Part shown: positions 2,679-18,450 of the stretch, in pieces
Layout: each line of letters starts with the position of its first letter
How positions within the stretch are numbered: the first letter of the stretch is position 1
Origin: a virus
Length of the DNA: 25,561 bases
Strand: one strand, 5' to 3'
Virus record (IMG/VR): IMGVR_UViG_3300008259_000927
Location: 1 to 25,561 of that record
Program-made: the position numbers and the translations under genes
The notes under the pieces: model-generated
Told to the model about the DNA's origin: nothing
Databases searched by the model: none
The model's input: the letters and a program-made list of their open reading frames with translations, nothing else

Positions 2679-3086
2679 ATGGCTAGTCCAATCCCAACAC
2701 AACTAAGCCCAGGCGTTAAAGTTTCGGAGATCGATCTTTCTCAGTTCATTCAGCCAGAGTCTCTCAACAGTGCTGGTATGGTGGGAACATTCAATTGGGG
2801 TCCATGTTTGATTGCAAATCGAGTCACATCGGAAAGCAATCTTGCTGCCCTTTATGGAAAGCCAACCCTTGATCCTTCTGATGTTGACAGTGAGGCAGAT
2901 TTACAAGTATTGCAAACTGTACTCATGGTAGCATCAAGAATGAGGCAGAGTTTGCACTATTGGGAGGATTTTCTGGACAAGATGGCATCGAATCCATTGC
3001 ACACTTCCGCGGTAGATATCCAGGAAACTTTGGAGACTCACTTAAGGTCATTGTTTGGGATGGTGCTACAAGTGAAAATGGTATAA
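2679..3086 (+). CDS. Second tail sheath protein, 5' fragment (frame broken)
   Basis: The N-terminal piece of a tandem sheath paralogue starts MASPIPTQLSPGVKVSEIDL, clearly homologous to the first copy. AGGAG lies just upstream of the ATG. Homology in this frame runs to about base 2921 (DLQVLQTV); the rest, to the stop at 3086, is out-of-frame translation. Compared with the first copy (GIDFHCAANFLQYGRDLRIV), about nine residues are missing between DVD and DLQV, immediately before the frame break. The continuation in the correct frame is readable from about base 2924 (HGSIKNEAEF). This is either a damaged gene or an assembly or consensus error; read it together with the next entry. Confidence 0.85.
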   Translation: MASPIPTQLSPGVKVSEIDLSQFIQPESLNSAGMVGTFNWGPCLIANRVTSESNLAALYGKPTLDPSDVDSEADLQVLQTVLMVASRMRQSLHYWEDFLDKMASNPLHTSAVDIQETLETHLRSLFGMVLQVKMV

Positions 3087-5329
3087 TAAACACAACAACC
3101 ACGGCATACACAGATTATACATTGTTTGGCGGATACGCACTAGCAACAATGGCTGGTATAAGCACGGGTACTATCGGATATACATTTGAGGTAAAAAGAA
3201 ATCCTTTTACTATTGGGCTTGATATGCCTGATGTTGATGGTCTTGTTTCTTTGGGATTTACAAGTGGATCGCATCAATACACTCTTGTCACGGTTGTCCC
3301 GCCAACGAGTCAAACTACAGCACAGTTTATAGATTCTCTATCAAACGCAGAAGGAATCAAGTTCTTCTATGCAACAGGAACAACTTCAAGCAATCTTTCT
3401 TTGACTAGTTCTGGTAGCATTCCCGATGGAAATAATGGAAATTATTATGTTCTTGAGGATGCAACAGCAACCATAGGCAAAGCGTTCAATCCATTCAATA
3501 CATTCAACCCATCAACGAATCCTTCGAAAAATATATTCGCAAAAGTAAATTCTGTAAATAGTGCGGCTGTTGATCTGTTATTCTTGAATGCAGATTCAAC
3601 AAATATGAACTCTGGATTTGCAAATCCATCAGCAACCGCAAAAGCACCAAATCCAGCCGCGTTCAAGAACTTCCAAACATCTGGTATTCCATCAAACTTT
3701 GGTTCTTTGATCTATACAGGAACAGATAGCACAAATCTATTTGTTACCTACAGATCCACATGGTCAACTATAGCCTCCAAGATATTCAACACAGTATCGG
3801 GGACTCCATCTACTTCTATAAAGGGTTGGAATCTTCTTGTTGGGTTGACTGGTGGAATCACATTTGTTCAGACAGTCAGTGGAACTCAACAAGCAATAGG
3901 TCTTACCTTTGATACTGTTGGTGGTCTTACTGGTATCCAAAGAGACTTTGCATTCGGTATGAAGCAGTTTGGAAAGACATCAGTTGTAAACTCACAGACA
4001 ACATCAACTGTTGCAGATTTTACATCATCAACCGCGATCTTTGATAAGATACCAAATACATCAGAATTCGCTCTTAGTGTTGGTGGTTCAAATGATGAAG
4101 TAAGTTTTGCAGTTATTGATACGGGTGGAAAGTTTGGTCCAAAGAATGGACTTCTTGAAAGATTCCAACTTCTATCAAAGGCAAAGGATGCAAAGAATCT
4201 TGATGGTGAGTCAATCTACTATAAAGACTACATCAATAATAACTCTAAATTTGTTTACTGTACCAAGCCGTTTGGTTTGAGTGGTGGTGGCAATGCATCA
4301 TCGGATGCAACCACCGCATTCGGTGAAATCTTCTATTCTTATGTTGATGTACCTGGTGGCACAACCTACACAAGGAAGGGATTCTATGAATCCCAACTTT
4401 ATTTTGGTGAATCAAGCGCATCAACTCCAACAATCGCTGAGTATAGCAATGCATATTCAATCTTTGCTGATGATGATTCGGCAGTTGATATTATCTTTGT
4501 ACCAGAATCATCAGTTGCAACTGATACATCAAGCGCAGCAACAACAGTAGAATCTATCGTCTATGATACGGTGATTGAACCACGCAAGGATACCATCCTT
4601 GTCATTCCAACACCAAAGCCAGCAAGCACAACTCAACATTCTGCACAAGCAACAGCAAATGCCATTGGATTCAGGAAGACCAATCTAACAGTTCCTTCCA
4701 ACTCGTACACAATGCTTGTTGCTGGTAGAAAGATCTACTTTGATACATTCAATAATCAGTTGCGTAGAATGTCTCTATCATCAGATCTTGCTGGAATACT
4801 CTCCGCACAAGAGATTCCTTGGGAATCGCCAGCGGGATTTGCAAGAGGAATCATCCGCAATGCCATCAAGTTGGAGACAAACTTCTCCAAGCCTGATCGC
4901 GACGAACTTTATAAGAACGGAATTAACTTCTTCGTTCAGTTCAATGATGGATCTGGTACAGCATTGTTCGGTGACAAGACTCTTCTAACCAAACCAAGTG
5001 CCTTTGATCGCATCAATGTCCGCAGAGTGTTCATCTCTCTTGAGAAGGCCATTTCTAAGGCGGCTAAGTTCTCATTGTTCGAATTCAATGACGAGTTCAC
5101 CCGTTCTCAGTTCCGCAATCTAGTAATCCCATTCCTCTCAAGTGTACAATCACAAAGGGGTATTGCAGATTTCAAGGTTGTTTGCGACAACACAAACAAT
5201 ACTGCTGAAGTGATTGATAAGAATCAGTTCGTTGCAGACATCTATATCAAGCCATTGAAGTCCATCAACTTCATTCAGTTGAACTTCATTGCAGTGAGAA
5301 GCGACTTTAACCTCACCACCATCGAATAA
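2960..5329 (+). CDS. Second tail sheath protein, main part (3' fragment)
   Basis: The body of the second sheath protein is readable from about 2924 (HGSIKNEAEFALLGGFSGQDG). The nominal TTG start at 2960 is only the first permissible start after the frame break and is not a real start. The conserved early core (HFRGRYPGNFGDSLKVIVWD) and the C-terminal core (FGDKTLLTKPSAFDRINVRR to the end) closely match the first copy, with synonymous third-base changes that indicate past purifying selection. The middle, roughly 3090-4060, is Ser/Thr/Gly/Asn-rich and longer than in the first copy, so the full protein would be near 880 residues. The stop codon lies inside a late-promoter-like motif for the tube gene. 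A minor sheath subunit, or a sheath carrying an extra outward domain, is possible. Confidence 0.88.
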   Translation: MGGFSGQDGIESIAHFRGRYPGNFGDSLKVIVWDGATSENGIINTTTTAYTDYTLFGGYALATMAGISTGTIGYTFEVKRNPFTIGLDMPDVDGLVSLGFTSGSHQYTLVTVVPPTSQTTAQFIDSLSNAEGIKFFYATGTTSSNLSLTSSGSIPDGNNGNYYVLEDATATIGKAFNPFNTFNPSTNPSKNIFAKVNSVNSAAVDLLFLNADSTNMNSGFANPSATAKAPNPAAFKNFQTSGIPSNFGSLIYTGTDSTNLFVTYRSTWSTIASKIFNTVSGTPSTSIKGWNLLVGLTGGITFVQTVSGTQQAIGLTFDTVGGLTGIQRDFAFGMKQFGKTSVVNSQTTSTVADFTSSTAIFDKIPNTSEFALSVGGSNDEVSFAVIDTGGKFGPKNGLLERFQLLSKAKDAKNLDGESIYYKDYINNNSKFVYCTKPFGLSGGGNASSDATTAFGEIFYSYVDVPGGTTYTRKGFYESQLYFGESSASTPTIAEYSNAYSIFADDDSAVDIIFVPESSVATDTSSAATTVESIVYDTVIEPRKDTILVIPTPKPASTTQHSAQATANAIGFRKTNLTVPSNSYTMLVAGRKIYFDTFNNQLRRMSLSSDLAGILSAQEIPWESPAGFARGIIRNAIKLETNFSKPDRDELYKNGINFFVQFNDGSGTALFGDKTLLTKPSAFDRINVRRVFISLEKAISKAAKFSLFEFNDEFTRSQFRNLVIPFLSSVQSQRGIADFKVVCDNTNNTAEVIDKNQFVADIYIKPLKSINFIQLNFIAVRSDFNLTTIE

Positions 5330-5332
5330 ATA
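5325..5332 (+). promoter_or_regulatory. Late-promoter-like motif AATAAATA before the tail tube gene
   Basis: The octamer AATAAATA differs at one base from the T4 late promoter TATAAATA, which is recognised by RNA polymerase carrying gp55. It overlaps the TAA stop of the second sheath gene and would start a transcript near 5338, just before the GGGAG ribosome site of gp19. A gp55 gene is present in this window. This is a motif match only. Confidence 0.4.
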
Positions 5333-5353
5333 AGCCTATAGGGAGCATCAAGA

Positions 5354-5923
5354 ATGAACATCAAGAACTTTGCCAATGCAATGCAGGGAGCGGGAGTCAA
5401 GCCTTCTCTCTTCGAAGTTCAGGGTAGAATCGGTGGAACGGAAAGCCCACTCACTCCGTTCCTTGTCAAGTCCGCATCATTGCCAGGTACTGCGTTAGGA
5501 ACCATCGAAATTCCATTCCGTGGAAGAAGAATCAAGGTACCTGGCGACCGCGTCTTCGGTGATTGGACAATCACACTCATCAATGATAATAAGTTCCAAC
5601 TTCGTAATCTTTTTGAACTTTGGGTCAACAGCATTCAGTCGATGCAGACAAATGTTGCTACCAACGAGTTCATCAACTTCGCTGGTCCAGTCTTCACAGA
5701 TTGGACTGTAAATCAGTTGGATCGTGCAGGAAAGCCAATCAAGGCATATACTTTGGTTGGATGCTTCCCAACTGACATCTCTCCAATCGATCTTTCATAT
5801 GAAGCAACAGATCAGATTGAAGAGTTCAGCGTCACTCTTGCATACTCTTACTTCACATCTAATGTCGGAACGCCAGACGCACAACCGCTACCTGGCTTGA
5901 ACAACTTCACCCCAGGTGGTTAA
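5354..5923 (+). CDS. 19: Tail tube protein
   Basis: This is the inner tube subunit of the contractile tail, stacked as hexameric rings inside the sheath. At 189 residues it is close to T4 gp19 (163) and typical of marine T4-like phages. It starts MNIKNFANAMQGAGVKPS, followed by SLPGTALGTIEIPFRGRRIKVPGDR and FGDWTITLINDN, the conserved beta-barrel segments of the T4-type tube family, and later DLSYEATDQIEEFSVTLAYSY. GGGAG lies 8 bases upstream of the ATG. Its position directly after the sheath genes and before the portal matches the canonical order. Confidence 0.95.
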   Translation: MNIKNFANAMQGAGVKPSLFEVQGRIGGTESPLTPFLVKSASLPGTALGTIEIPFRGRRIKVPGDRVFGDWTITLINDNKFQLRNLFELWVNSIQSMQTNVATNEFINFAGPVFTDWTVNQLDRAGKPIKAYTLVGCFPTDISPIDLSYEATDQIEEFSVTLAYSYFTSNVGTPDAQPLPGLNNFTPGG

Positions 5924-5946
5924 TCTTTAGTATTTGGAGATCGTGA

Positions 5947-7623
5947 ATGGCTTTTGAACTTTTTGGATGGAGCCTGGGTAGATCAGGCGATAGGACAGCC
6001 CCGAAACTTGAGCAGGAAGAGATTAAGGCAAATGCATCATTTGCCCCTCCTGATCTTGAGGACGGGGCTATGCCTATTTCGTCTGGTGTATACTTTAGTT
6101 CCTACATGGATTTCGATGGGGGAATCAAGTCAACAGCCGACATGATTCGCAAGTACAGGGAAATGGCCCTGTATCCTGAAGTTGAAATGGCAATCGATGA
6201 CATCTGCAACGAAGCAATCGTCTACGATGACACAAAGAGGCCAGTCGAGATCGTTGTTGATGACAGGAAACTTTCTCCAAAGATTAAGGCAAAGATCCAA
6301 GAAGAGTTTGATGAGATCCTTCGTCTGCTGAAGTTTCAAGATAAAGGATACGAAATCTTTCGAAAGTGGTACATTGACGGAAGACTCTATTATCACAAGA
6401 TCATAGACAAGGAAAACCCAAAGAAGGGTCTTGTCGAACTTCGTCCAATCGAATCAACCCACATCAGGAAGGTTCGAAATGTTCAGAAGAAGAAGGACAA
6501 GGCAACCAATGCTGATCTTGTCACAAAGGTTGACGAGTTCTTTGTCTACAGCGAGCGCGAGGAAACATCCACAACCACTGCGGCATTCACTCCCGCCACA
6601 CCAACCAAGGGTGTGAAGATTGCCACAGATTCGATCTGTTACACACACAGCGGTTTGTTTGATTCAGGTAAGAAGCGCGTCCTATCCTATGTTCACAAGG
6701 CACTCAAGCCACTCAATCAGTTGAAGATGGTCGAGGATGCCGTTGTGATCTATCGGTTGTCTCGCGCTCCAGAGCGAAGAGTTTTCTACATCGATGTCGG
6801 CAATCTTCCAAAGAACAAGGCCGAGCAGTATCTCAAGGACATCATGAACCGCTATCGCAATAAGTTGGTTTATGATGCATCGACTGGAGAACTCAAGGAC
6901 GAGCGTAGGCACATGACAATGCTTGAGGACTTTTGGATGCCTCGCCGCGAAGGTGGCAAGGGAACCGAAGTCTCAACGCTACCAGGTGGACAGAATCTTG
7001 GACAGATGGACGATGTCCTGTACTTTCAGAAGAAACTATACAAGTCATTGAATGTTCCCACATCAAGACTTGAGACTGATCAGAACGGCTTCAATATGGG
7101 CCGTCAGGCAGAAATCACCCGCGACGAACTCAAGTTCTTCAGATTCATCGAAAGACTTCGCAAGAAGTTCGGTGAACTATTCATGGACATCATGAAGACT
7201 CAGTTGCTTCTCAAAGGAGTCATCACGAAGGAAGATTGGGAATACATTCAGCCCATGATTCGCTTCGACTTCCGCAAGGATTCATACTTCACGGAAGCAA
7301 AGGAGAACGAGATCCTAACAAACAGACTGAATCTCGTCAATAGTGCAGATCCATATCTCGGCAAGTACTTCTCTAAGGCTTATGTTCAGAAGCATATTCT
7401 GCGTCTTTCTGAGGAAGAAATCGCGGATATCACGCAGGAAGTCGAGCAAGAGAAGCAAGAGAATCCCGATACTGCCATTCCAACGCAGATAGCGACCCAA
7501 GTCACCACTCAGCAGATGACTGGTGATATACAGATGCAGCAGCAGTTGCAACAGCAACAGGCTCAAATGCAGATGCAAGCACAAATGCCACAGCCCCAAG
7601 AACAACCAAACTCCAAGAAATAA
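5947..7623 (+). CDS. 20: Portal vertex protein
   Basis: The portal forms a dodecameric ring at one capsid vertex, initiates prohead assembly and is the channel for packaging. The 558 residues are comparable with T4 gp20 (524). Conserved blocks include YREMALYPEVEMAIDDICNE, the GRLYYH/ELRPI region, VIYRLSRAPERRVFYIDVGN, LPKNKAEQYLKDIMNRYRNK, and then TLPGGQNLGQMDDV with NVPTSRLETD. The C-terminal 45 or so residues are a low-complexity Gln/Met-rich tail (MQQQLQQQQAQMQMQAQ) ending in basic SKK, probably disordered and variable. GGAGA precedes the ATG. The frame is intact. Confidence 0.97.
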   Translation: MAFELFGWSLGRSGDRTAPKLEQEEIKANASFAPPDLEDGAMPISSGVYFSSYMDFDGGIKSTADMIRKYREMALYPEVEMAIDDICNEAIVYDDTKRPVEIVVDDRKLSPKIKAKIQEEFDEILRLLKFQDKGYEIFRKWYIDGRLYYHKIIDKENPKKGLVELRPIESTHIRKVRNVQKKKDKATNADLVTKVDEFFVYSEREETSTTTAAFTPATPTKGVKIATDSICYTHSGLFDSGKKRVLSYVHKALKPLNQLKMVEDAVVIYRLSRAPERRVFYIDVGNLPKNKAEQYLKDIMNRYRNKLVYDASTGELKDERRHMTMLEDFWMPRREGGKGTEVSTLPGGQNLGQMDDVLYFQKKLYKSLNVPTSRLETDQNGFNMGRQAEITRDELKFFRFIERLRKKFGELFMDIMKTQLLLKGVITKEDWEYIQPMIRFDFRKDSYFTEAKENEILTNRLNLVNSADPYLGKYFSKAYVQKHILRLSEEEIADITQEVEQEKQENPDTAIPTQIATQVTTQQMTGDIQMQQQLQQQQAQMQMQAQMPQPQEQPNSKK

Positions 7624-7650
7624 TAGATAATCAAATCAGGAGATAATAAA

Positions 7651-7947
7651 ATGTCCGATTCAAGAGAACTCATCAGGGCAATCATGGACGAAGATTTCGT
7701 CTCTGCCAAAGAAATCACAAATGGCCTTCTTTTCTCCACCGTTGCCGATCACATTGATGATGTAAAGGCTGAAGTTGGAATGAACCTTTTCGATGAACTT
7801 GAGGAAGGTAAGGATTATGATAAGGACGGCACGATTGAATCTCCAAAGGATGAAGTCCTTGGTTCACGCATCAATGCCGCAGTCAAGTCTGGTAAACTCT
7901 CACCACAACAGGCAGCAAAGACCAAGAACAAGGGCATGTACCGCTAA
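7651..7947 (+). CDS. Small prohead-core-like protein with EF-hand-like loop
   Basis: This 98-residue protein sits exactly where T4 carries the prohead core genes 67 and 68, between portal and protease, and is preceded by AGGAG. The N-terminal 50 residues (LIRAIMDEDFVSAKEITNGL) look like the short helical start of gp67-type core proteins. Residues 55-60 read DYDKDG, followed by TIESPKDEVLGSRI, which resembles an EF-hand or dockerin-type calcium loop, although the usual acidic residue at loop position 12 is Lys. The C-terminus is basic (AAKTKNKGMYR). The assignment as prohead core protein rests mainly on position; the calcium-binding reading is inference. Confidence 0.6.
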   Translation: MSDSRELIRAIMDEDFVSAKEITNGLLFSTVADHIDDVKAEVGMNLFDELEEGKDYDKDGTIESPKDEVLGSRINAAVKSGKLSPQQAAKTKNKGMYR

Positions 7948-7956
7948 GGATTTTCT

Positions 7957-8604
7957 ATGCTACTAATCACAGAACACAACGAAACAAACATTCAGACCAT
8001 TGCTGAAGATGCTGGCAACGGAAAGAAGAACTACTACATTCGTGGTGTGTTCATGGAATCCGAGCAGATTAACAAGAATGGTCGAATCTACCCACAATCC
8101 ATCATGGAGCGTGAGGTTGGTAAGTACAACGACAACTACATCAAGAGCAGCCGTTCGCTTGGCGAACTAGGCCACCCACAGGGACCAAGCCTAAACCTCG
8201 ACAGAGTTTCCCATATCATCAAGGAGATGAATATGGATGGAACTGTCGTTTATGGAAAGGCAAAGATTCTTGATACACCATTCGGAAACATTGTTAAGAA
8301 CCTCATTGATGAGGGTGTGCGCCTTGGCGTTTCATCCCGTGGAATGGGTTCTTTAAAGCAAGTAAACGGCGTGAACGAGGTTCAGGACGATTTTAGTCTT
8401 GCAACAGTAGACATCGTTGCAGATCCATCAGCCCCAAATGCCTTTGTCAATGGCATCATGGAAGGCAAGGAGTGGGTCTGGAACAATGGTATTCTTCAGG
8501 AGAAGGCTATTGCCTCATACAAGAAGACCATCACAAAAGCCAGTTCACGCGAACTAGAAGAAGCAAAGTTGGAAGTCTTCAAGGACTTCTTATCAAAACT
8601 CTGA
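7957..8604 (+). CDS. 21: Prohead core maturation protease
   Basis: This is the serine protease that processes scaffold and capsid proteins inside the prohead before packaging. At 215 residues it is near T4 gp21 (212). The fold markers of the phage prohead protease family are present: YYIRGVFMESEQINKNGRIY, then SLGELGHP with the likely catalytic His at 73, GVSSRGMGS with the likely nucleophilic Ser at 126 or 127, and TVDIVADPSAPNAF. It lies 9 bases after the preceding gene, with AAGGA as a weak ribosome site, and directly precedes the scaffold gene, its main substrate. The C-terminal segment after about residue 170 is variable and rich in Lys and Glu. Confidence 0.94.
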   Translation: MLLITEHNETNIQTIAEDAGNGKKNYYIRGVFMESEQINKNGRIYPQSIMEREVGKYNDNYIKSSRSLGELGHPQGPSLNLDRVSHIIKEMNMDGTVVYGKAKILDTPFGNIVKNLIDEGVRLGVSSRGMGSLKQVNGVNEVQDDFSLATVDIVADPSAPNAFVNGIMEGKEWVWNNGILQEKAIASYKKTITKASSRELEEAKLEVFKDFLSKL

Positions 8605-8608
8605 TTTT

Positions 8609-8616
8609 TATACATA
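8609..8616 (+). promoter_or_regulatory. Late-promoter-like TATACATA before the scaffold gene
   Basis: TATACATA matches seven of eight bases of TATAAATA. It lies in the 35-base gap before gp22, with a plausible start near 8622 and a good ribosome site (AAAGGAG) before the ATG at 8640. This is a motif match only. Confidence 0.3.
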
Positions 8617-8639
8617 AGGGAAGATAAAGGAGATTTCTA

Positions 8640-9764
8640 ATGCCTCAGCCAGAAGAGTTCTACGAAGAAGAAGAGATCCTTGAAGACATTGACAACGATG
8701 TTGATGAGGACGATACCATCGATGATGAAGAGCCAACCGACGATGAACTCGTTGAAGATGGCGAAGAAGAATTTGATGAAGACGACTTCATCGATGAAGA
8801 CGAAGAAGACGAGGACGAGGAAGATGTCTCTGAGGAGTACGAGGTGGTTGCAACAAGCGACACCAATACTGACTTCGGCGGTGGCAAGACCAAGAGGTTC
8901 CCCGAGCCAGAAGACAAGTCTGCTCAGAACAAGGCAACCATTGCCTCCAAGGTTCCATTCAAGGGCAAGGCAAAGATTCCAGATCGTTCGGACTTCACCA
9001 TGCAGGAGCATATCGGTGCAATGTTCGAAGGCGAGGATCTCTCCGAAGACTTCAAGAACAAGGCGATTGCAGTATTTGAGGCAGCAATCAACGAGCGTTA
9101 CGACGCAATCGTTACTCGCCTTGAAGAGGCATATGAGCAGACTATCGCTGAGAACACCGAGAAGATTCTTGATGAACTCTCAAGCCGCGTCAATGACTAT
9201 ATCTCCTACATCGCTGAAGAATGGGTCGAAGAAAATCGTCTCGTTCTTGAAAGCGGTATCAAGGTAGAGATCGCAGAGAACTTCCTCAACGGCATGAAGG
9301 GTATCTTCGAAGAGAACTTCATTCAGGTTCCTGAAGAGAAGGTTGATCTCATGGATGAACTCTCCGATGAGAACGAAGAACTCCGCGACGAAGTAAACAA
9401 TCAAGTCAACGAGAACATGGAACTCCGTAAGGAAATCCTTGCTCTCCGCTGCGACGATATCTTTGAATCATATTGCGACGGTCTTGCAGACACCCAAGTT
9501 GAGAAACTCCGCACTCTCGCAGAGGGTATTGAGTTCGACTCAGAGGATATGTTTGAAGACAAGTTGGCAGTCCTCAAGGAATCATACTTCGGCAATGCTC
9601 GTCGCGTAAAGGCACCAGCACCTGTCACCGAGAATCTTATTGAGGAAGTAGTCCTCGACTCAGGCGACGAGGAGCAGGAACTCGCAGAAGAAACAGCACC
9701 AATCAATCCAATCATGCAGCACTACACATCTGCATTGTCACGCAAAGGTCTAAAGAACAGGTAA
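8640..9764 (+). CDS. 22: Prohead scaffold protein with very acidic N-terminus
   Basis: This is the major component of the prohead core, around which gp23 assembles and which gp21 digests. The family signature is in the second half: YISYIAEEWVEENRLVLESG, then ENFLNGMKGIFEENFI-VPEEKVDL, a coiled coil of heptad-like DELSDENEELRDEVNNQ, and DTQVEKLRTLAEGIEFDS. At 374 residues it is longer than T4 gp22 (269). The excess is largely an N-terminal arm in which 44 of the first 70 residues are Asp or Glu and none is Lys or Arg. In T4, acidic internal head peptides are derived from core proteins such as gp22, so this arm may serve that role; that is inference. AAAGGAG lies upstream. Confidence 0.92.
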   Translation: MPQPEEFYEEEEILEDIDNDVDEDDTIDDEEPTDDELVEDGEEEFDEDDFIDEDEEDEDEEDVSEEYEVVATSDTNTDFGGGKTKRFPEPEDKSAQNKATIASKVPFKGKAKIPDRSDFTMQEHIGAMFEGEDLSEDFKNKAIAVFEAAINERYDAIVTRLEEAYEQTIAENTEKILDELSSRVNDYISYIAEEWVEENRLVLESGIKVEIAENFLNGMKGIFEENFIQVPEEKVDLMDELSDENEELRDEVNNQVNENMELRKEILALRCDDIFESYCDGLADTQVEKLRTLAEGIEFDSEDMFEDKLAVLKESYFGNARRVKAPAPVTENLIEEVVLDSGDEEQELAEETAPINPIMQHYTSALSRKGLKNR

Positions 9765-9790
9765 TCCCTGTCAAATCAAGGAGAATAGAA

Positions 9791-10567
9791 ATGGGTACTT
9801 TCACACTAGTCGAACAACTTGAGCGCAAGTGGGAGCCAGTTATGGAACATAACAGCCTCTCGCCAATCAAGGACAACTACCGCCGTGCAGTCACGGCAAT
9901 CCTCTTGGAGAACCAAGAGCAAGCACTTCGCGAAGCAGCAGCACCAGCAAGTGCAATCGGAGCAGCGGGTCTTGATTATGCAACTGGATCTGGTCTTGCA
10001 GGATATGATCCAATCCTCATCTCGCTCGTTCGCCGCGCAATGCCAAACCTCATGGCATACGATGTTGCATCAGTTCAGCCAATGACCTCGCCAACTGGAC
10101 TCATCTTCGCAATGAAGTCCACTTATGTCAACCGCAGTGGATCAGAAGCCCTCTTCAATGAAGCATTCACTAAGTTCTCGGGTGTTTCGGGATCTGCTTC
10201 GTCTGCTGGTGGCGGCACTGCCGAATCAACATTTGTTGGTGATCCACTTTATGGTATTCTCGGAACCACTGGTTCTGCCATTTCGGGTGCCTCTGGTTGG
10301 GAACCATCTAGCGGAATGTCCCGCGAACTCGGTGAAGGTCTTGGTGAAGGTGGAGCAAATGGCGACTTCAACACCATGGCATTCACGATTGATCGTGCAT
10401 CATCAACCGCGAAGTCGTTCGTTCGATCTACACCACAGCCAAACTCGGCGCACAGCACAGCGATCTTTTCTACAAGACCTCTGGAAGCACTTACTCGTTC
10501 GTTCCAGGCGCATCAAATCCATCTCAAAGCACTGGTCTTGCTGCTCCAGGTGGTGTCTATGACCTAA
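9791..10567 (+). CDS. 23: Major capsid protein, 5' fragment (frame broken)
   Basis: This is the N-terminal half of the T4-type HK97-fold capsid subunit: LVEQLERKWEPVMEHNSLSPI, NYRRAVTAILLENQEQ, the TGSGLAGYDPILISLVRRAMPNL block and PMTSPTGLIFAMKS. Real homology stops at about base 10414 (MAFTIDRASSTAKS). From there to 10567 the protein is out of frame. In relatives, AKS is followed by about 43 residues of helical sequence (the ALKAEYT-ELAQDL-AIHGLDAE type), and none of it is found here, so about 130 bases are missing as well as the frame. AAGGAG precedes the ATG. The rest of the protein is in the next entry. Confidence 0.92.
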   Translation: MGTFTLVEQLERKWEPVMEHNSLSPIKDNYRRAVTAILLENQEQALREAAAPASAIGAAGLDYATGSGLAGYDPILISLVRRAMPNLMAYDVASVQPMTSPTGLIFAMKSTYVNRSGSEALFNEAFTKFSGVSGSASSAGGGTAESTFVGDPLYGILGTTGSAISGASGWEPSSGMSRELGEGLGEGGANGDFNTMAFTIDRASSTAKSFVRSTPQPNSAHSTAIFSTRPLEALTRSFQAHQIHLKALVLLLQVVSMT

Positions 10568-10614
10568 TCCGCGACTCAGACGGTCGTTGGTCTGCTGAGA
10601 AGTTCCGCGGCCTC

Positions 10615-11133
10615 ATGTTCCAAATTGAGCGCGAAGCCAATGTGATCGCTAAGGATACCCGCCGTGGTAAGGGCAACTTCATCATCTGCTCTGCGGATGT
10701 TGCATCAGCCCTCGCAATGGGTGGATTCCTTAACATCAGCCCAGCACTCAATGTTAACCTTGATGTTGATGACACGGGCAACACCTTCGTCGGTGTTCTC
10801 AATGGTAAGATCAAGGTCTATGTTGATCCTTACTCCTCAGTTGGTATCAGCGCAAACGCTCGCGACTTCGTCTGCGTCGGATACAAGGGAACCTCGCCAT
10901 ATGATGCAGGACTCTTCTACTGCCCATACATCCCACTACAGATGGTTCGTGCAATCAACGATGCGACCTTCCAGCCAAAGATTGGTTTCAAGACCCGTTA
11001 CGGCATGGCAGTCAATCCATTCGTCAACACAACCAATGTTGCAGTTTCTAGCAACTATCGCGCAAATCAGTACTACCGCATCTTCCGCGTGGACAACCTC
11101 CATGGCGTTCAGGGTGTAGTTTCACAGTCCTGA
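10615..11133 (+). CDS. 23: Major capsid protein, 3' fragment
   Basis: The C-terminal half of the capsid protein is readable in this frame from about 10417 (VRSIYTTAKLGAQHSDLFYK), well before the nominal ATG at 10615. Conserved blocks are GRWSAEKFRGLMFQIEREAN, TRRGKGNFIICSADVASAL, GTSPYDAGLFYCPYIPLQM and IGFKTRYGMAVNPF, ending at a tandem TGA-TAG stop. The sequence is highly conserved up to the break point, so this is not an old pseudogene. It is followed by a strong intrinsic terminator. A phage needs an intact gp23, so an assembly or consensus fault is likely. Confidence 0.92.
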   Translation: MFQIEREANVIAKDTRRGKGNFIICSADVASALAMGGFLNISPALNVNLDVDDTGNTFVGVLNGKIKVYVDPYSSVGISANARDFVCVGYKGTSPYDAGLFYCPYIPLQMVRAINDATFQPKIGFKTRYGMAVNPFVNTTNVAVSSNYRANQYYRIFRVDNLHGVQGVVSQS

Positions 11134-11160
11134 TAGTTGACTGAAAATAATCAGTAGAGG

Positions 11161-11192
11161 TCGGGGGGAGAAATCCCCCCGATTTCTTTTTT
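11161..11192 (+). terminator. Intrinsic terminator after the major capsid gene
   Basis: TCGGGGGGA pairs with TCCCCCCGA around a GAAA tetraloop (9 bp stem, 11161-11182), followed by TTTCTTTTTT. It lies 27 bases after the capsid stop codon and closes the head-gene transcription unit. This is a textbook Rho-independent terminator. Confidence 0.93.
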
Positions 11193-11208
11193 AAGGATAC
11201 ATATAGGC

Positions 11209-11775
11209 ATGAGCGACGAATACGATTCATCATTGATAAATGCCGCTGCCATAAACGAAGAAGGCACTAGTTACAATGCACTTCTTCGTCAGCCGACAAA
11301 TGTAAATGCATATCAGAATACAAACTTTAAGTTGTCTTTCACAAGACTCCCAAATGTCACCTTCTGGTGTACATCGGTAAATATACCATCAATTTCGGTT
11401 GGTGAGATAAGCATACCGAATAGACTGCTAACACATCATGTGCCTGGGTCATCTGTTCAGTTTGATCAGTTGCGAGTCACATTTGAAGTTGATGAAGATT
11501 TTGCGAACTGGTATGAGGTATATCGATGGATGAAAGGCATTGTCCCTTTCGAAGATTTTGAATCTATTCTTGCAAATGAGAACAACTATTATTCAGATGC
11601 CACAGTACACATGCTGAATAGTGCAAAGAATCCTAATAAGAGATTTGTTTTCAAGCAAGTATTTCCTGTCAGTATAGATGGATTTGATCTAAATGTTGCC
11701 CTAAACGAACCAGAGCCAGTACAAGTCAGCGCAACATTCACATTCCATTCATTTGAACTTGAAGATGTGACTTGA
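11209..11775 (+). CDS. 3: gp3-like tail completion and sheath stabiliser protein
   Basis: This 188-residue protein resembles T4 gp3 (176), which caps the tube and sheath at the neck-proximal end. Matching features are FKLSFTRLPNVTFWCTSVNI-PSISVGE, the PGSSVQFDQLRVTFEVDEDF-NWYEVYRWM block (a central signature of gp3 and of tube-like domains), and a C-terminal beta-strand ending SATFTFHSFELE. The position after gp23 and before uvsY is the usual place for gp3 in cyanophage-type T4 relatives. It has a weak AAGGA ribosome site and follows the terminator. A different tube-fold structural protein cannot be fully excluded. Confidence 0.72.
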   Translation: MSDEYDSSLINAAAINEEGTSYNALLRQPTNVNAYQNTNFKLSFTRLPNVTFWCTSVNIPSISVGEISIPNRLLTHHVPGSSVQFDQLRVTFEVDEDFANWYEVYRWMKGIVPFEDFESILANENNYYSDATVHMLNSAKNPNKRFVFKQVFPVSIDGFDLNVALNEPEPVQVSATFTFHSFELEDVT

Positions 11776-11799
11776 CTTGATTTGATTTTGTGATATTCT
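11772..11799 (+). promoter_or_regulatory. Sigma70-like promoter for uvsY, predicted start at the ATG
   Basis: TTGACT (11772-11777), a 16-base spacer and TATTCT (11794-11799) resemble a host sigma70 promoter. Counting seven bases from the end of the -10 box puts +1 at 11806, the A of the uvsY ATG. No Shine-Dalgarno lies before that ATG. The -10 box is only four of six to consensus, so this is tentative. Confidence 0.4.
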
Positions 11800-11805
11800 T
11801 TAACC

Positions 11806-12240
11806 ATGGATATAGAAACAATCAAGAAGATGGTCGCAGAGGACATGGAGATTGATGACCTCAATCTCGACCTTGAATCTCTCAAGACACCACAACTACA
11901 CAGCAAGTATCTGAACATACTGCACGATGAGTCTCTTGTTCTACACAAGGCCACGATTGAGCAGAAGGAACTTCGTAGACTCAAGTGGGAATATTACCTT
12001 GGCAAGTTGGATCAAGAGACGCTTGATGAAAAGGGATGGCAACCTTTTGGCCTGAAGATCCTCAGAACAGACATCGATGTTTACCTTGAATCTGACAAGG
12101 ATCTACTAAGGTTGGAAGCCCGTGTATACTACCTCAAGGAAAAGGTGAAGTACATCGAATCCGTATTACAATCCATTGGTCGCCGTGGTTGGGACATCAA
12201 GTCTGCAATAGAATGGAAGAAGTTCATGAGTGGATCATGA
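11806..12240 (+). CDS. uvsY: UvsY recombination mediator
   Basis: UvsY loads the UvsX recombinase onto gp32-coated single-stranded DNA in recombination-dependent replication and repair. The 144 residues are close to T4 UvsY (137). Family marks are the acidic N-terminus (DMEIDDLNLD), LRRLKWEYYLGKL, GWQPFGLKILRTDIDVYLESD and the C-terminal helix IGRRGWDIKSAIEWKKFMSG. No Shine-Dalgarno is visible, and a promoter-like element places the transcript start at the ATG. The stop codon overlaps the start of the deaminase gene as ATGA, implying translational coupling. Confidence 0.93.
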   Translation: MDIETIKKMVAEDMEIDDLNLDLESLKTPQLHSKYLNILHDESLVLHKATIEQKELRRLKWEYYLGKLDQETLDEKGWQPFGLKILRTDIDVYLESDKDLLRLEARVYYLKEKVKYIESVLQSIGRRGWDIKSAIEWKKFMSGS

Positions 12241-12737
12241 AGATAGTAACCGAAGGCATTCACAGAGTCTATCTCAGACAAGCCTACATTCATGCTCAGG
12301 CTCGTAGCGAAGACACAAACACACAGGTTGGTGCCTTGATTGTATTTCCTTCATCGGGAATCATAGCAGCAGATGTAAACCGCTACCCATCCATACGACA
12401 ACCAAACGAACAACCGAAATACGATTACATCGAACACGCTGAGAGATCTGTGATATACAGGTGTGTTTCCAAGGGTCTTACAACCCTCAATACGCACATG
12501 TATTGCCCATTCATCAGTTGTCCCGATTGTGCGAGGGCAATCGTTCTATCTGGCATAAAGAGGGTGGTTGGACACAAGACTCTATGGGACATCATCCCCG
12601 ACAGGTGGAAAACAAAGTGCGATATCGGAGTGTCAATCCTTGAGTCTGCGGGGGTAGAAGTCCTGCTCTATGAGGGAAAAGTCCTAAACGAAGGAGAGTT
12701 TAAGATTCATTTTGATGGGAGAGATATAGAACCATAA
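12237..12737 (+). CDS. dCMP deaminase-like nucleotide deaminase
   Basis: This is a zinc-dependent deaminase of the deoxycytidylate deaminase family, which makes dUMP from dCMP for phage dTTP synthesis. The 166 residues start at the ATG overlapping the uvsY stop; an earlier in-frame ATG at 12189 lies inside uvsY and is unlikely. The zinc and catalytic motif is HAE (67-69), with a CPDC pair (Cys95, Cys98) as further ligands, preceded by NTQVGALIV, typical of the family. It is shorter than T4 Cd (193), and I do not see the full allosteric insert. A related cytidine deaminase-fold specificity is possible. Confidence 0.87.
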   Translation: MKIVTEGIHRVYLRQAYIHAQARSEDTNTQVGALIVFPSSGIIAADVNRYPSIRQPNEQPKYDYIEHAERSVIYRCVSKGLTTLNTHMYCPFISCPDCARAIVLSGIKRVVGHKTLWDIIPDRWKTKCDIGVSILESAGVEVLLYEGKVLNEGEFKIHFDGRDIEP

Positions 12738-12740
12738 ATA
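12733..12740 (+). promoter_or_regulatory. Late-promoter-like CATAAATA before uvsW
   Basis: CATAAATA matches seven of eight bases of the T4 late motif and contains the TAA stop of the deaminase gene. The expected start, about six bases downstream, coincides with or lies within a base or two of the uvsW ATG at 12746, which has no Shine-Dalgarno. Confidence 0.4.
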
Positions 12741-12745
12741 TCTGC

Positions 12746-13984
12746 ATGGATACATTGGTTCTGGAAGATGTTGATTCAGTATTCATCCGTGTGCGTTGTG
12801 AACGCGGCACCGCAAAGGAGTTGAGCGATTGCTTCTCCTTCAAGGTTCCAAACCACAAGTACATGTCGCGTTTCCGCAAGTCGCGGTGGAGTGGCGACAT
12901 CAAACTCTACAACATAGGCAAGGCAACGATCTACAGAGGTCTGAAGAACTATGTCACAAAGTTCGCCTGTGATCGTGGTTATCATGTGGAGAGCAGTCTT
13001 TCACAGAATCAATCCATTCCTCTAGACAACGAGGGCTTGGATGATCTCTTCAACAGATGCGTAGGCAAGGCATCTGGAATACCTTCATTACACGACCATC
13101 AGCGGGAAGCCATCATCAAGGCTACCGAGGCATCAAGGCTTCTGCTCGTCTCTCCGACAGGCAGTGGCAAATCCATGATCATCTACCTTCTGCTCAGGCA
13201 TTTACTTGAAAATGTCGATGGCAAGATTCTCATAGTTGTTCCAACCATAGGTCTTGTTACACAGATGGCAAGTGATTTCGAAGCCTATGCCAAGGGAACG
13301 GATTGGAAAGTTTCAAAGAACTGCCACCCGATTTATGCGGGACAAGACAAAGAAACAAACAAACGAGTTGTCATCACCACATGGCAATCAGTGTTCAAGC
13401 AACCACGCGCTTACTTCGACCAGTTCAAGGTTGTTTTCGGTGATGAATGCCATATGTTCAAGGCAAAGTCTCTCACTGGCATCATGGAAAAATTGACTGA
13501 TTGCAACTATAGGATTGGCACCACGGGAACACTTGATGGAATGCAATGCCACAAGTTGATCATCGAAGGTCTGTTCGGACCTTCCTATCATGTCACAACC
13601 ACGAAGAAACTCATCGACAAGAACATACTTTCGCATCTGAAAATCGACACAATACTACTTCAATACGGAGAAGACGAAAGACGCGCTGTCAGCAAGTATA
13701 ACTATAGTGACGAGATGTTGTGGCTTATCCACAACGACAAGAGAAACAGATTCATAGTAGATCTTGCAGACAAACTAAAGGGAAATACTTTGATTCTGTT
13801 TCAGTTTGTTGAGAAGCATGGAAAGTATCTCAATCATCTTGCAGAAAAGACGGGAAGAAAGACCTTCTTCGTGCATGGCGGAACGGAAGCGGAGGACAGA
13901 GAGAAAGTATCTCAATCAAGAGGCTACACAACATCATATTTGCATCACCTAGCAAGTCAAGGATTCGGGTGCTGCAATCGATAG
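12746..13984 (+). CDS. uvsW: UvsW helicase, main part (frame broken near the end)
   Basis: UvsW is an SF2 DNA/RNA helicase that unwinds R-loops and branched DNA, shifting the phage from origin-dependent to recombination-dependent replication. Visible motifs are a Q-motif-like DHQREAI (117-123), Walker A SPTGSGKS (136-143), Walker B DECH (233-236) and GTTGTL (258-263). The N-terminal domain (SFKVPNHKYMSRFRKSRWSG) is typical. True sequence ends at about base 13908 (GTEAEDREKV); the last 25 residues are out of frame. The segment carrying helicase motif V (the SYG-STG-NIK type) is missing. The end of the gene is in the next entry. Confidence 0.92.
   Translation: MDTLVLEDVDSVFIRVRCERGTAKELSDCFSFKVPNHKYMSRFRKSRWSGDIKLYNIGKATIYRGLKNYVTKFACDRGYHVESSLSQNQSIPLDNEGLDDLFNRCVGKASGIPSLHDHQREAIIKATEASRLLLVSPTGSGKSMIIYLLLRHLLENVDGKILIVVPTIGLVTQMASDFEAYAKGTDWKVSKNCHPIYAGQDKETNKRVVITTWQSVFKQPRAYFDQFKVVFGDECHMFKAKSLTGIMEKLTDCNYRIGTTGTLDGMQCHKLIIEGLFGPSYHVTTTKKLIDKNILSHLKIDTILLQYGEDERRAVSKYNYSDEMLWLIHNDKRNRFIVDLADKLKGNTLILFQFVEKHGKYLNHLAEKTGRKTFFVHGGTEAEDREKVSQSRGYTTSYLHHLASQGFGCCNR
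13821..13918 (+). repeat. 16-base direct repeat at the UvsW lesion
   Basis: GAAAGTATCTCAATCA occurs at 13821-13836 and again, identically, at 13903-13918. The first copy encodes part of a natural helicase segment (GKYLNHL). The second copy lies exactly at the point where frame and homology are lost. The repeat is visible directly; its cause is not. Confidence 0.9.
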
Positions 13985-14166
13985 GAAGACAACTGCGAGT
14001 ATCTGAACACAAGGAATACGCGAAACTATACGATATTGGGGATGATTTATCATGGAAGAGCAAAAAGAATCACACGCTTCGTCACTTTGCGGAACGAATA
14101 AAGATCTATCGATCAGAAAACTTCGACTTCAGACCAGTGTTACTAAAGATGGAGAATCTACCATGA
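13915..14166 (+). CDS. uvsW: UvsW helicase, C-terminal fragment
   Basis: The C-terminal end of UvsW reads in the -1/+2 frame from 13915: IKRLHNIIFASPSKSRIRVL, then motif VI QSIGRQLR, then the helical end KNHTLRHFAERIKIY. The nominal ATG in this frame at 13969 is internal. The two parts total about 473 codons against 503 in T4, consistent with 25 to 30 codons lost at the junction. The stop overlaps the start of the next gene as ATGA. Confidence 0.88.
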   Translation: MKRLHNIIFASPSKSRIRVLQSIGRQLRVSEHKEYAKLYDIGDDLSWKSKKNHTLRHFAERIKIYRSENFDFRPVLLKMENLP

Positions 14167-14909
14167 ATCAATACATCTTGATTAAGTTGAGATCGGGTGA
14201 GGAGATAGTAGCCAGCATCCTCTCCAAGAATCGAAATGGCATCAAGGTGTCTAGACCGATGCTTATTCGACAGGTTCCATTCATGGATCCATCAAGTGGT
14301 GCATTGAAGGCAGCGTCTGTCATGGAAAATTGGATTGGTAGGACAAATGAAAACGAAGTCACCATTCCTAATAGTTGGGTTGGAATAAAGATGACTCCTG
14401 CCCAAGAAATAGTAGATGCTTATGAAAAGTATAAAAACCGCGAGGACAATCCATCCCTACCTCCCATCAAGGAAGAAGCAAAGACCATCAGAGAAGAAGT
14501 CGATGAAGCAAAGAAGAAAGAACTAGCAGAAATGGAAGGAGAGATGAGTCGTTTGTTAAAGGAAATGGCCGCTGATGCTGGTATTTCTCCAATGATAAAC
14601 AGCATGGCCGATTTCGATTCAATGATGCAGTCAAAACTTGACCCAAAAGATCCAGAGAAGGAAATGGTTGTTGTGAACTTTATGATCCCTGCAAAGATCT
14701 TCAAGAACCTAATGGAAGAAGGTCTGATCGAAGATATGATGACTGCTGGTATGCATGACATCGATGATGACGATGATTTGGAAGATGATGTCGATCCGAG
14801 CCTACCCAAGAAGCCCAAGGATGACCATGAAACCATCAAGGATACTGGAGACGAGAAGTGGGGCAACAGTCTCAAGGACTGGAGTCCAGATCCCAATGAT
14901 TACCTGTAA
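14163..14909 (+). CDS. Conserved phage protein, possible Sm-like N-terminal domain
   Basis: This 248-residue protein starts at the ATG overlapping the uvsW stop; an earlier in-frame ATG at 14052 lies within uvsW. Residues 1-75 (YILIKLRSGEEIVASILSKN, then GIKVSRPMLI) have the beta-strand pattern of Sm/Hfq-like small barrels seen in hypothetical proteins next to uvsW in marine T4-like phages. Residues 95-125 are a Glu/Lys-rich helix. A conserved-looking block VVVNFMIPAKIFKNLMEEGL follows, and then a strongly acidic run (DDDDDLEDD). Function is unknown. An RNA- or nucleic-acid-binding role is only suggested by the possible barrel. Confidence 0.75.
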   Translation: MNQYILIKLRSGEEIVASILSKNRNGIKVSRPMLIRQVPFMDPSSGALKAASVMENWIGRTNENEVTIPNSWVGIKMTPAQEIVDAYEKYKNREDNPSLPPIKEEAKTIREEVDEAKKKELAEMEGEMSRLLKEMAADAGISPMINSMADFDSMMQSKLDPKDPEKEMVVVNFMIPAKIFKNLMEEGLIEDMMTAGMHDIDDDDDLEDDVDPSLPKKPKDDHETIKDTGDEKWGNSLKDWSPDPNDYL

Positions 14910-15010
14910 GTAATCTGTAAGTACATTTCTTGATTAAACACGACACAGTCAAGTTACCATTCTCGTTTTCATCTGTCAAGACCCTTTCAAATAAATCTAA
15001 ATCAAGGCAC

Positions 15011-15038
15011 TTGTCTTTGACGATAACTGGTGTATGAT
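15011..15038 (+). promoter_or_regulatory. Sigma70-like promoter before gp55
   Basis: The 154-base gap 14910-15063 holds no gene. It contains TTGTCT (15011-15016), a 16-base spacer and TATGAT (15033-15038), giving a start near 15045 and a 19-base leader with AAAGGGA before the gp55 ATG at 15064. An alternative -35, TTGACG, overlaps at 15017. Moderate match. Confidence 0.4.
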
Positions 15039-15063
15039 TACTACACTATGAAAGGGATACTAC

Positions 15064-15582
15064 ATGAACGAAGAAGGTCACTATGTTGATAATAAAGTTT
15101 TCTATCAAGAGATGATAAAGTGGAAGCGGGAGTGCAATAAGGCAAAGAGGAAGAAGGAACCTCAGCCTCCTGTGACTGACTATATCGGAAGATGCTTTCT
15201 GGCTATTGCTGAAAGACTCTCATATAGACCAAACTTCATCAACTATCCATATCGCGAGGAAATGGTCGGGGACGGCATTGAGAACTGCCTGATGTATGCT
15301 GCCAACTTCAATCCAAAGAAGTCAAAGAATCCATTCTCATATTTCACACAGATAATCTACTATGCCTTCGTTCGTAGGATACAGAAAGAAAAGAAGCAGA
15401 ACTATATCAAATATAAGAGTATAGAGATAGCACAAGTCAACGGGAAGATTCCGAACTGGCTGAAGAACATGTGCTATGACGAAAACAAGGTCGAAGAGTT
15501 CTTCAAGTCATTGGCATTGTCTGAGACTGATCTCAAGAACTTTGAGGTTACGAAGAAGGAACCCAAGAAGAGCAAGAAATGA
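15064..15582 (+). CDS. 55: Late sigma factor
   Basis: gp55 replaces host sigma factor on RNA polymerase to read the short late promoters (TATAAATA type). The 172 residues are close to T4 gp55 (185). Residues 65-112 (EEMVGDGIENCLMYAANFNP, then NPFSYFTQIIYYAFVRRIQK) match sigma region 2, which binds the polymerase clamp and the -10 element. The C-terminus is basic (KKEPKKSKK); a T4-style clamp-binding hydrophobic tail is not obvious. Its stop overlaps the start of gp47 as ATGA. The presence of gp55 supports the late-type motifs annotated elsewhere in this window. Confidence 0.92.
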   Translation: MNEEGHYVDNKVFYQEMIKWKRECNKAKRKKEPQPPVTDYIGRCFLAIAERLSYRPNFINYPYREEMVGDGIENCLMYAANFNPKKSKNPFSYFTQIIYYAFVRRIQKEKKQNYIKYKSIEIAQVNGKIPNWLKNMCYDENKVEEFFKSLALSETDLKNFEVTKKEPKKSKK

Positions 15583-16292
15583 AGATTGCAATAATCACCG
15601 ATACACATTTCGGGGTGAAAAACGACTCACCGATTTTCCTTGAGGCATATCTTTCATATTTCGAAGAACAGGTGTTTCCGTATCTACTGAAGCACAACAT
15701 CAAGACAGTCATCCATACGGGAGATGTCCTTGATCGCAGAAAGTACATAAACTTCAATACTCTTTACAATGTCCGCAGAAGATTCACGGAGTGGTTCAGA
15801 AAGAACGACATAGATGTTCATTGTGTCATCGGGAACCATGATTGCTATTGGAAAAACACCAATGAGGTCAACTCTGTTGTCGAGATATTCGGTGATGCCT
15901 TCCATGTCTATGAGAAGCCAAGCGATGTCATGATTGGCGGAATGATCTGTGGATTTGTTCCGTGGATATCCAAGGACAATGCACAGGTTGTTCAGGAATA
16001 TCTTGCAAAGAGCAATGCTGATGTCCTTTTTGGTCACTTTGAACTTACGGGATATGAGGTTGTTCGTGGAGTTAAGCACGAAGGTGGCTTGAATCCAATC
16101 GCCCTATCCCGCTTCAAACAGGTCTATTCGGGTCACTTCCATTGCAAGCAGCAGAATGGAAACATCCACTATCTCGGAACAGCCTATGAGATGTTCTATT
16201 CAGAGGCAACCGAGACAAAGGGATTTAAAGGTTGTAGTTACCTCCAAGAAGAACACTGCCAAGTTCGATATGTTCTGCGACAAGTTGTTTGA
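15579..16292 (+). CDS. 47: Recombination nuclease subunit gp47, 5' part (frame broken)
   Basis: gp47 is the SbcD/Mre11-like nuclease that works with the ATPase gp46 to resect DNA ends. Calcineurin-like metallophosphoesterase motifs are complete: DTHFG (Asp8, His10), GDVLDRR (Asp49), GNHD (Asn86, His87), GHFE (His153) and SGHFH (His186, His188). Homology in this frame ends at about base 16227 (ATETKGF); the following 22 residues are out of frame. About 40 to 50 residues expected between this point and the next recognisable block are missing. The gene starts inside the gp55 stop codon (ATGA). Confidence 0.93.
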   Translation: MKIAIITDTHFGVKNDSPIFLEAYLSYFEEQVFPYLLKHNIKTVIHTGDVLDRRKYINFNTLYNVRRRFTEWFRKNDIDVHCVIGNHDCYWKNTNEVNSVVEIFGDAFHVYEKPSDVMIGGMICGFVPWISKDNAQVVQEYLAKSNADVLFGHFELTGYEVVRGVKHEGGLNPIALSRFKQVYSGHFHCKQQNGNIHYLGTAYEMFYSEATETKGFKGCSYLQEEHCQVRYVLRQVV

Positions 16293-16491
16293 TGCTGGTG
16301 TGTACGACCTACAGATTGTTGAAAAACTTGAGGAAGAAGCCGCCACGGAAGAGGAATATGTCTCTGAAAAGGAACTTTCCAAGAACACCGTGGAACTGAT
16401 AGATGGCTATATTGATGAACTAAAAATCGACAGCGGAACTGCCCTGAAATCCCTCATGCGTGAACTTTATGCTGAAAGTTTGTCTCTGTAG
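16228..16491 (+). CDS. 47: gp47, C-terminal fragment
   Basis: The C-terminal capping part of gp47 reads in a different frame from about 16228: KVVVTSKKNTAKFDMFCDKL, then YDLQIVEK, a Glu-rich stretch and a final helix (GTALKSLMRELYAESLSL). The nominal ATG in this frame at 16156 gives 24 out-of-frame residues first and is not a real start. The two parts span about 304 codons, shorter than the roughly 340 usual for the family, in line with a small deletion at the junction. Confidence 0.85.
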   Translation, partial: KVVVTSKKNTAKFDMFCDKLFDAGVYDLQIVEKLEEEAATEEEYVSEKELSKNTVELIDGYIDELKIDSGTALKSLMRELYAESLSL

Positions 16492-17555: not shown

Positions 17556-18001
17556 TGGCACTTGTTGATCAGGATTTTATTGTTGAGCAAGGTTCAACCT
17601 TTGTGTTACAGTTTGATCTCAGAAATGATGATAACAGTACACTAACAACCACCACGACAAATCAATATACAGCCACCTCATCTGCCGCTAATATTTCATT
17701 GCGAATGAAGGTAAAGAAGAGCAAGTATGGGACAGCGGCAGCAGTTCTTGGTATAACTGCAAACAGTGTTTTGCAAGCAAATACAGAATCAACTGAAGGC
17801 AATACCATAGATGGGTTCTATTTTGATGCTGAAAATCAAGGTAGAGTGAAGTTCATTATATCATCCACGACAACTGCTGCATTGAAGCATGGAAAATATT
17901 TCTATGACATAGAAGTTGTAGATACAAAGACAAGTGGTGGAGTTGAAGTTACAAAAGCATTAAGCGGAAGATTAGATGTTCAAGCGGAGGTAACTAACTG
18001 A
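17555..18001 (+). CDS. Small beta-rich virion structural protein, paralogue A
   Basis: This 148-residue protein is of a type common before tail-fibre genes in marine T4-like phages. It starts with DFIVEQGSTFVLQFDLRNDD, has a short basic strand LRMKVKKSKYG, then FIISSTTTAALKHGKYFYDI and a C-terminal strand GRLDVQAEVT. The pattern resembles the N-terminal Ig-like domain of baseplate upper proteins. It shares QGSTFVL, KKSKY and G(K/R)YFYD with the next gene, so the two are tandem paralogues. Its start and stop overlap both neighbours by one base, indicating translational coupling. A structural role at the baseplate or fibre base is inferred. Confidence 0.7.
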   Translation: MALVDQDFIVEQGSTFVLQFDLRNDDNSTLTTTTTNQYTATSSAANISLRMKVKKSKYGTAAAVLGITANSVLQANTESTEGNTIDGFYFDAENQGRVKFIISSTTTAALKHGKYFYDIEVVDTKTSGGVEVTKALSGRLDVQAEVTN

Positions 18002-18450
18002 TGCCAGCACTAAACAACGATCTTTCACTTGAGCAAGGTTCTACTTTCGTTCTTGAATTTCAAGTTTTTACAGATGATCTTCAGCCATTGTCTATATTAA
18101 ACTCATCTATAAATGAGTTCGGTACACTTGTCTACTCATTAGATGATTACAGAGCAAGAATGAAGATCAAGAAGTCTAAGTACAGAGATCCCGTTTTATT
18201 CACACTTGGAAGCACAGCCACTCAAGTATTTCAGCCTGGAAGCACACAGGGCTTTGTACAGGATGGGATATTTTTCCTTGGTGGTAATACGGGTTTCATG
18301 CGTATGGTGATAAGTTCGGATACAACAACGACTTTTAAGGCTGGTCGTTATTTTTATGATGTTGAACTTGTACAGTTGGTTGATGGTGGAGAGATAGTCA
18401 GCAAGTTGATGGCGGGTAAGTTTGAGATTGAAGCGGAGTCAACTACATGA
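18001..18450 (+). CDS. Small beta-rich virion structural protein, paralogue B
   Basis: At 149 residues it is homologous to the preceding gene: DLSLEQGSTFVLEFQVFTDD, then RARMKIKKSKYRDPVLFTLG, MVISSDTTTTFKAGRYFYDV and GKFEIEAEST. The two are diverged outside these blocks, so the duplication is not recent. The stop overlaps the start of the giant fibre gene as ATGA. It is probably a connector between baseplate and fibre; no enzymatic motif is seen. Confidence 0.7.
   Translation: MPALNNDLSLEQGSTFVLEFQVFTDDLQPLSILNSSINEFGTLVYSLDDYRARMKIKKSKYRDPVLFTLGSTATQVFQPGSTQGFVQDGIFFLGGNTGFMRMVISSDTTTTFKAGRYFYDVELVQLVDGGEIVSKLMAGKFEIEAESTT

Follow-up and report, generated by a model that had tools for sequence, protein, structure and literature searches.

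Five frame-breaking losses in a T4-like phage record are in all likelihood artefacts of sequence production

Metagenome assemblies contain scaffolding gaps and local assembly errors, and errors left uncurated place incomplete or incorrect protein-coding sequences in public databases (Chen et al. 2020, PMC7111523). Sequencing and assembly artefacts have also been raised as a source of apparent frameshifts in work on artefactual pseudogenes in draft genomes (PMC11017572). Here we analyze IMG/VR virus record IMGVR_UViG_3300008259_000927, a stretch of 25,561 bases (the window) from a T4-like phage, in which five genes, encoding a second tail sheath protein, a gp23-like major head protein, a uvsW-like helicase, a gp47-like nuclease subunit and a long, putatively tail-fibre-like protein, have each lost an internal block. 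The window resembles the assemblies treated in PMC7111523 in that it appears to hold gaps where scaffolds were joined and local sequence that lacks support. Scaffold gaps in that paper hold Ns, whereas the gaps in the window are without letters and are read as deletions. The genomes considered in PMC11017572 are bacterial, whereas the window loses whole blocks of 58 to 140 bases.

The window's phage has T4-like head, tail and recombination genes in common with the T4-like cyanophages, and its portal protein is 53.6% identical to that of one of them, Synechococcus phage S-RIM8. Portals of Synechococcus and Prochlorococcus phages, at about 54% identity, ranked highest among the 2,501 phage records that matched (as seen among the best 40). 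Homologues of the portal, major head protein, sheath, late sigma factor, UvsY and UvsW lie together in one block, which places the phage among the T4-like group. It differs from the T4-like cyanophages in a 2272-residue tail-fibre-like gene, neither scanned part of which has a PHROGs match at E 0.001.

Searches with the window's portal protein returned two contigs at 100% identity, IMGVR_UViG_3300032116_003506 (10,819 bases) and IMGVR_UViG_3300042691_008788 (156,618 bases), and further searches added IMGVR_UViG_3300008117_000062 (61,907 bases) and IMGVR_UViG_3300010354_003528 (17,221 bases). When compared base by base with the 156,618-base contig over its whole length, the window is identical except for three substitutions (at 3916, 21072 and 21147) and five block losses, none of which is a multiple of three in length (Table 1). 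All five affected genes are single open frames in the 156,618-base contig. Moreover, each of the five missing blocks, together with its 30-base flanks, has an exact copy in other contigs of this phage. The breaks are also evident in profile matches, which identify four of the broken genes as sheath, major head protein, UvsW-like helicase and gp47-like nuclease. Specifically, coverage of the gp23 profile runs from 4 to 198 and resumes from 285 to 443, and that of the gp47 profile runs from 29 to 246 and resumes from 293 to 376. A first-pass annotation of the window had described the loss of an internal block and of the frame in sheath 2, gp23, uvsW and gp47, and the comparison bears this out, with 100, 130, 67 and 140 bases absent, respectively. 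Its count of four was incomplete, as a fifth block of 58 bases is missing at 20904/20905, beyond the region it covered, where the loss turns one 2272-residue gene into two apparent genes.

Table 1. Broken genes and lesion junctions in the window
Feature	Position	Strand	Bases missing	End homology (bases)	Observation
Window				 	Virus record of 25,561 bases; T4-like phage
Second tail sheath gene	2679..5329	+			Broken after base 2902; tail sheath profile on both halves; 916-residue frame in intact contig
Lesion 1 junction	2902..2903		100	0	Block intact in three other contigs
gp23-like major head protein gene	9791..11133	+			Broken at 10402; 490-residue frame in intact contig
Lesion 2 junction	10402		130	1	Block intact in three other contigs
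uvsW-like helicase gene	12746..14166	+			Broken at 13909; 495-residue frame in intact contig
Lesion 3 junction	13909		67	1	Block intact in two other contigs
gp47-like (SbcD-like) nuclease subunit gene	15579..16491	+			Broken after 16225; 350-residue frame in intact contig
Lesion 4 junction	16225..16226		140	0	Block intact in two other contigs
Long, putatively tail-fibre-like gene	18447..25207	+			Appears as open reading frames 18447-20915 and 20873-25207; 2272-residue frame in intact contig
Lesion 5 junction	20904..20905		58	0	Block intact in two other contigs

The lesions appear to be private to the window. Exact searches of viral contigs (2.9 million according to the tool description) gave no match to junctions 1, 2, 3 or 5, and these junctions thus showed no recurrence in independent samples within a contig set from which near-identical records were possibly omitted. 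The left flank of lesion 4 is present in two contigs, with the block intact in both. A second contig of the same phage carries a loss of its own. IMGVR_UViG_3300008117_000062, which is intact at lesions 1 to 4, is without 103 bases that correspond to window positions 5035 to 5137 and that are retained in the window and in two other contigs. This loss, at 50445/50446 of the contig (8446/8447 of locus L095), has no end homology and breaks the second sheath gene. It is the sole length difference between this contig and the 156,618-base contig over 61.9 kb, in which at most seven mismatches occur. The remaining three contigs of the phage show no such lesion over the stretches compared. Because the site of the lesion shifts among assemblies of a nearly identical genome, the losses point to assembly and not to biology.

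To place these losses against a base rate, eleven intact phage proteins were run by tblastn against 163 loci, comprising the best matches of two lists, the loci from a peptide-pattern search, the window and one 19.9-kb piece of the 61.9-kb contig; 847 protein–locus pairs gave a match. A frame change accompanied by loss of conserved residues was found in two of the 163 loci, namely the window, with its five lesions, and the 19.9-kb piece, with one lesion seen by both sheath queries. The signature was absent from the 161 other loci by tblastn, the sensitivity of which in distant relatives was not gauged. Two pairs of near-identical loci, L052/L056 and L030/L034, also contain breaks, which by their aligned ranges look repeat-associated and divergent, respectively. 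Within the window, gp18, gp19, gp20, gp21, the second tube gene and gp55 show no such lesion. This agrees with the earlier description of gp19, gp20, gp21 and gp55 as intact, and gp22, likewise described, was outside the tblastn comparison and falls in a stretch (2903-10402) that matches the intact contig save for one base. The labels gp19, gp21 and gp22 are putative and come from the first-pass annotation.

The five losses are thus, in all likelihood, artefacts of sequence production and not features of the phage. The most likely form of the artefact, and a probable one, is that the window is a draft scaffold in which unrecovered stretches were joined without gap letters. Six pieces would have been assembled correctly, while the five intervening stretches, 58 to 140 bases long, were not recovered; the pieces would have been correctly ordered and then joined minus the missing stretch and without gap letters, so that each gap would mimic a clean, frame-breaking deletion. 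We infer that the underlying cause is missing coverage combined with a scaffold join at which Ns were either removed or not written at all, and the assembler, the depositor and a later copy are candidate steps for the loss of the letters. Lesion 5 has two of the three private substitutions near it, at distances of 168 and 243 bases, as expected from thin coverage close to a contig end. The first-pass annotation had preferred one common cause over independent mutations, a judgment that we share, and of the causes it offered, an assembly or gap-closing artefact is the one favoured by the intact copies in other contigs and by the similar private lesion in the second contig.

With respect to the gap letters themselves, no N occurs in 1,964,765 bases (191 partly overlapping records, the window included). 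Scaffolds with N runs are described in the account of the IMG annotation pipeline (PMC4766715), and literature searches on N runs in IMG VR and on the sample numbers returned no paper. We considered whether Ns are dropped throughout the collection. No locus holds an N, yet the 161 other loci have no lesion, and such general dropping is neither shown nor excluded.

The repeats near the junctions were examined in turn, as the first-pass annotation had reported a direct repeat at three of its four junctions. Of these, a 16-base repeat does span junction 3, where 13903-13918 recurs 82 bases upstream at 13821-13836; this 16-mer takes 7 bases from the end of the left flank and 9 from the start of the right flank and is single copy in the intact 43-kb stretch. 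The 9-base (2891/2941) and 10-base (10415/10495) repeats merely adjoin junctions 1 and 2. Exact direct repeats of at least 9, 10 and 12 bases are present in 42%, 21% and 1%, respectively, of random 300-base stretches of the window (n = 500), and the 9- and 10-base repeats are thus at chance level. Repeat-mediated deletion was therefore rejected: two of the three named repeats are at chance level, and because end homology at lesions 1 to 5 amounts to only 0, 1, 1, 0 and 0 bases, none of the lesions arose by deletion between repeats.

Junction 2 (10398-10412) also has an exact spanning match, of 15 bases, at 4023-4037 in the sheath gene. Among control junctions compared with the whole 156.6-kb genome, 26 of 3,793 have a spanning match of at least 15 bases (207 of 4,000 controls were discarded for direct homology of at least 3). 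The spanning matches at junctions 2 and 3 are 15 and 16 bases, and those at lesions 1, 4 and 5 and at the second contig's gap are 11, 8, 9 and 10 bases, which is within the control range. Binomial arithmetic gives about 7 in 10,000 for two of six junctions at the level of 15 or more, for a test picked after the repeat had been seen.

Several points weigh against a scaffold joined without gap letters. Missing coverage combined with such joining fits everything except what is seen at junctions 2 and 3, whose 15- and 16-base matches are not predicted by a plain gap and are left unexplained by it. The missing coverage is itself presumed, from assembled contigs. The viral contig searches may omit records very close to the window's own genome, which makes the zero matches weaker. 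We also infer that the four contigs stem from samples other than the window's; their dataset numbers all differ, and the window's own is thus shared by at most one of them. Finally, dropping of Ns across the collection might put lesions in more of the 161 loci, and as there are none, the loss of gap letters may be special to certain assemblies.

The junction matches bear on a second form of artefact, in which chimeric molecules arose by template switching during amplification or library preparation and were adopted by the assembler at places with little true coverage. The 15- and 16-base matches spanning junctions 2 and 3 could mark bridged switches, and the partner of lesion 3 is merely 82 bases off. 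However, end homology is at most one base at every junction, and neither lesions 1, 4 and 5 nor the second contig's gap rise above the controls. We regard this origin, which is included in the overall verdict of artefact, as unlikely.

A further artefactual form, covered by the same verdict and to our minds quite improbable, is an assembly tangle, in which blocks identical to those of a co-occurring relative collapse from the graph and read pairs join the unique flanks. This is a good fit to gp23, a weak fit to uvsW and to the second contig's gap and no fit to the other blocks. Against the loci gathered for this comparison, 48% of the gp23 block, the only block rich in them, is covered by 31-mers common to other contigs, compared to 6.2% for the region, and 20-mers common to other contigs cover 30% of the uvsW block and 34% of the second contig's gap, compared to 18% for the region, a level that the three remaining blocks do not exceed. 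However, the other four window blocks and the second contig's gap have no shared 25-mers, and the sheath and lesion 5 blocks no shared 16-mers; the comparison covered the gathered loci and not the window's own sample. Strong secondary structure and extreme base composition were also rejected as causes of the losses, since stretches of 200 bases around the midpoints of the six lost blocks are within the control range, with minimum free energy ranks of 0.22 to 0.89 among 300 control stretches (DNA or RNA energy parameters not recorded) and G+C contents of 0.41 to 0.51.

It is very unlikely that junctions 2 and 3 at least are real molecules produced by a bridged template switch, present in a fraction of phage genomes or of the amplified DNA; in such a switch, the two ends of the lost block would pair, through the 15- and 16-base matches across the junctions, with neighbouring segments of a third site, and a deletion would arise without direct end homology. 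Still more doubtful, to the point of being extremely improbable, is a population or dominant subpopulation of real defective genomes that carries all five frame-breaking deletions and depends on intact helper phage for its propagation, one of the causes put forward by the first-pass annotation. All five losses strike genes, and the window is otherwise of high quality, with three differences in 25.5 kb. However, five frame-breaking losses stand against just three substitutions, end homology is lacking, no contig was found with junction 1, 2, 3 or 5, the left flank of lesion 4 occurs in intact contigs only and another contig carries a private loss elsewhere. In T4, the sheath, major head protein and gp47 are regarded as essential, which also counts against defective genomes. 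The other proposed cause, a deletion-prone replication state from loss of UvsW and gp47, is hardly credible: both genes are among those broken, but direct-repeat or microhomology ends, which would be expected, are absent, the same excess of losses over point differences and the same unmatched junctions apply, and the second contig is lesioned alike though its uvsW is whole and its gp47 is whole as far as the sequence reaches.

The broken genes of the window are almost certainly ordinary draft-sequence errors and no biological discovery. Comparison with one contig turns four "broken essential genes" and two "neighbouring genes" into five intact phage genes, a warning that claims of gene loss, pseudogenes or split genes from single viral contigs require a second assembly. 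Whole viral collections could be screened in the same manner, for clean, homology-free, frame-breaking losses relative to a near-identical contig.

At both ends of the 156,618-base contig (L104 and L103), the terminal 141 bases match the same 141 bases of IMGVR_UViG_3300008117_000062. Because both ends match one stretch, the contig is probably a complete, circularly permuted genome. The usual k list of MEGAHIT has 141 as its maximum. Several assemblies break at lesion 4, where two other contigs have an end no more than about 40 bases from the lesion's right edge, the 61.9-kb contig stopping 37 bases beyond the lesion and the 17.2-kb contig starting 30 bases ahead of the right edge.

Other window genes with profile matches encode a late sigma factor, UvsY, a dCMP deaminase and the tail tube. 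The ends of the two sheath genes, 2329-2631 and 4991-5293, are about 75% identical in DNA, which marks them as adjacent paralogues. The product of the gene at 18447-25207 is putatively tail-fibre-like; its second part has a Pfam Beta_helix match, and a search with six short peptide patterns found relatives in three viral contigs, two of which belong to the window's phage. Immediately ahead of it are two small adjacent genes of the phrog_1084 family (17555-18001 and 18001-18450). At the far end, 25243-25560 holds a gene like that for pyrimidine dimer DNA glycosylase, truncated by the end of the window.

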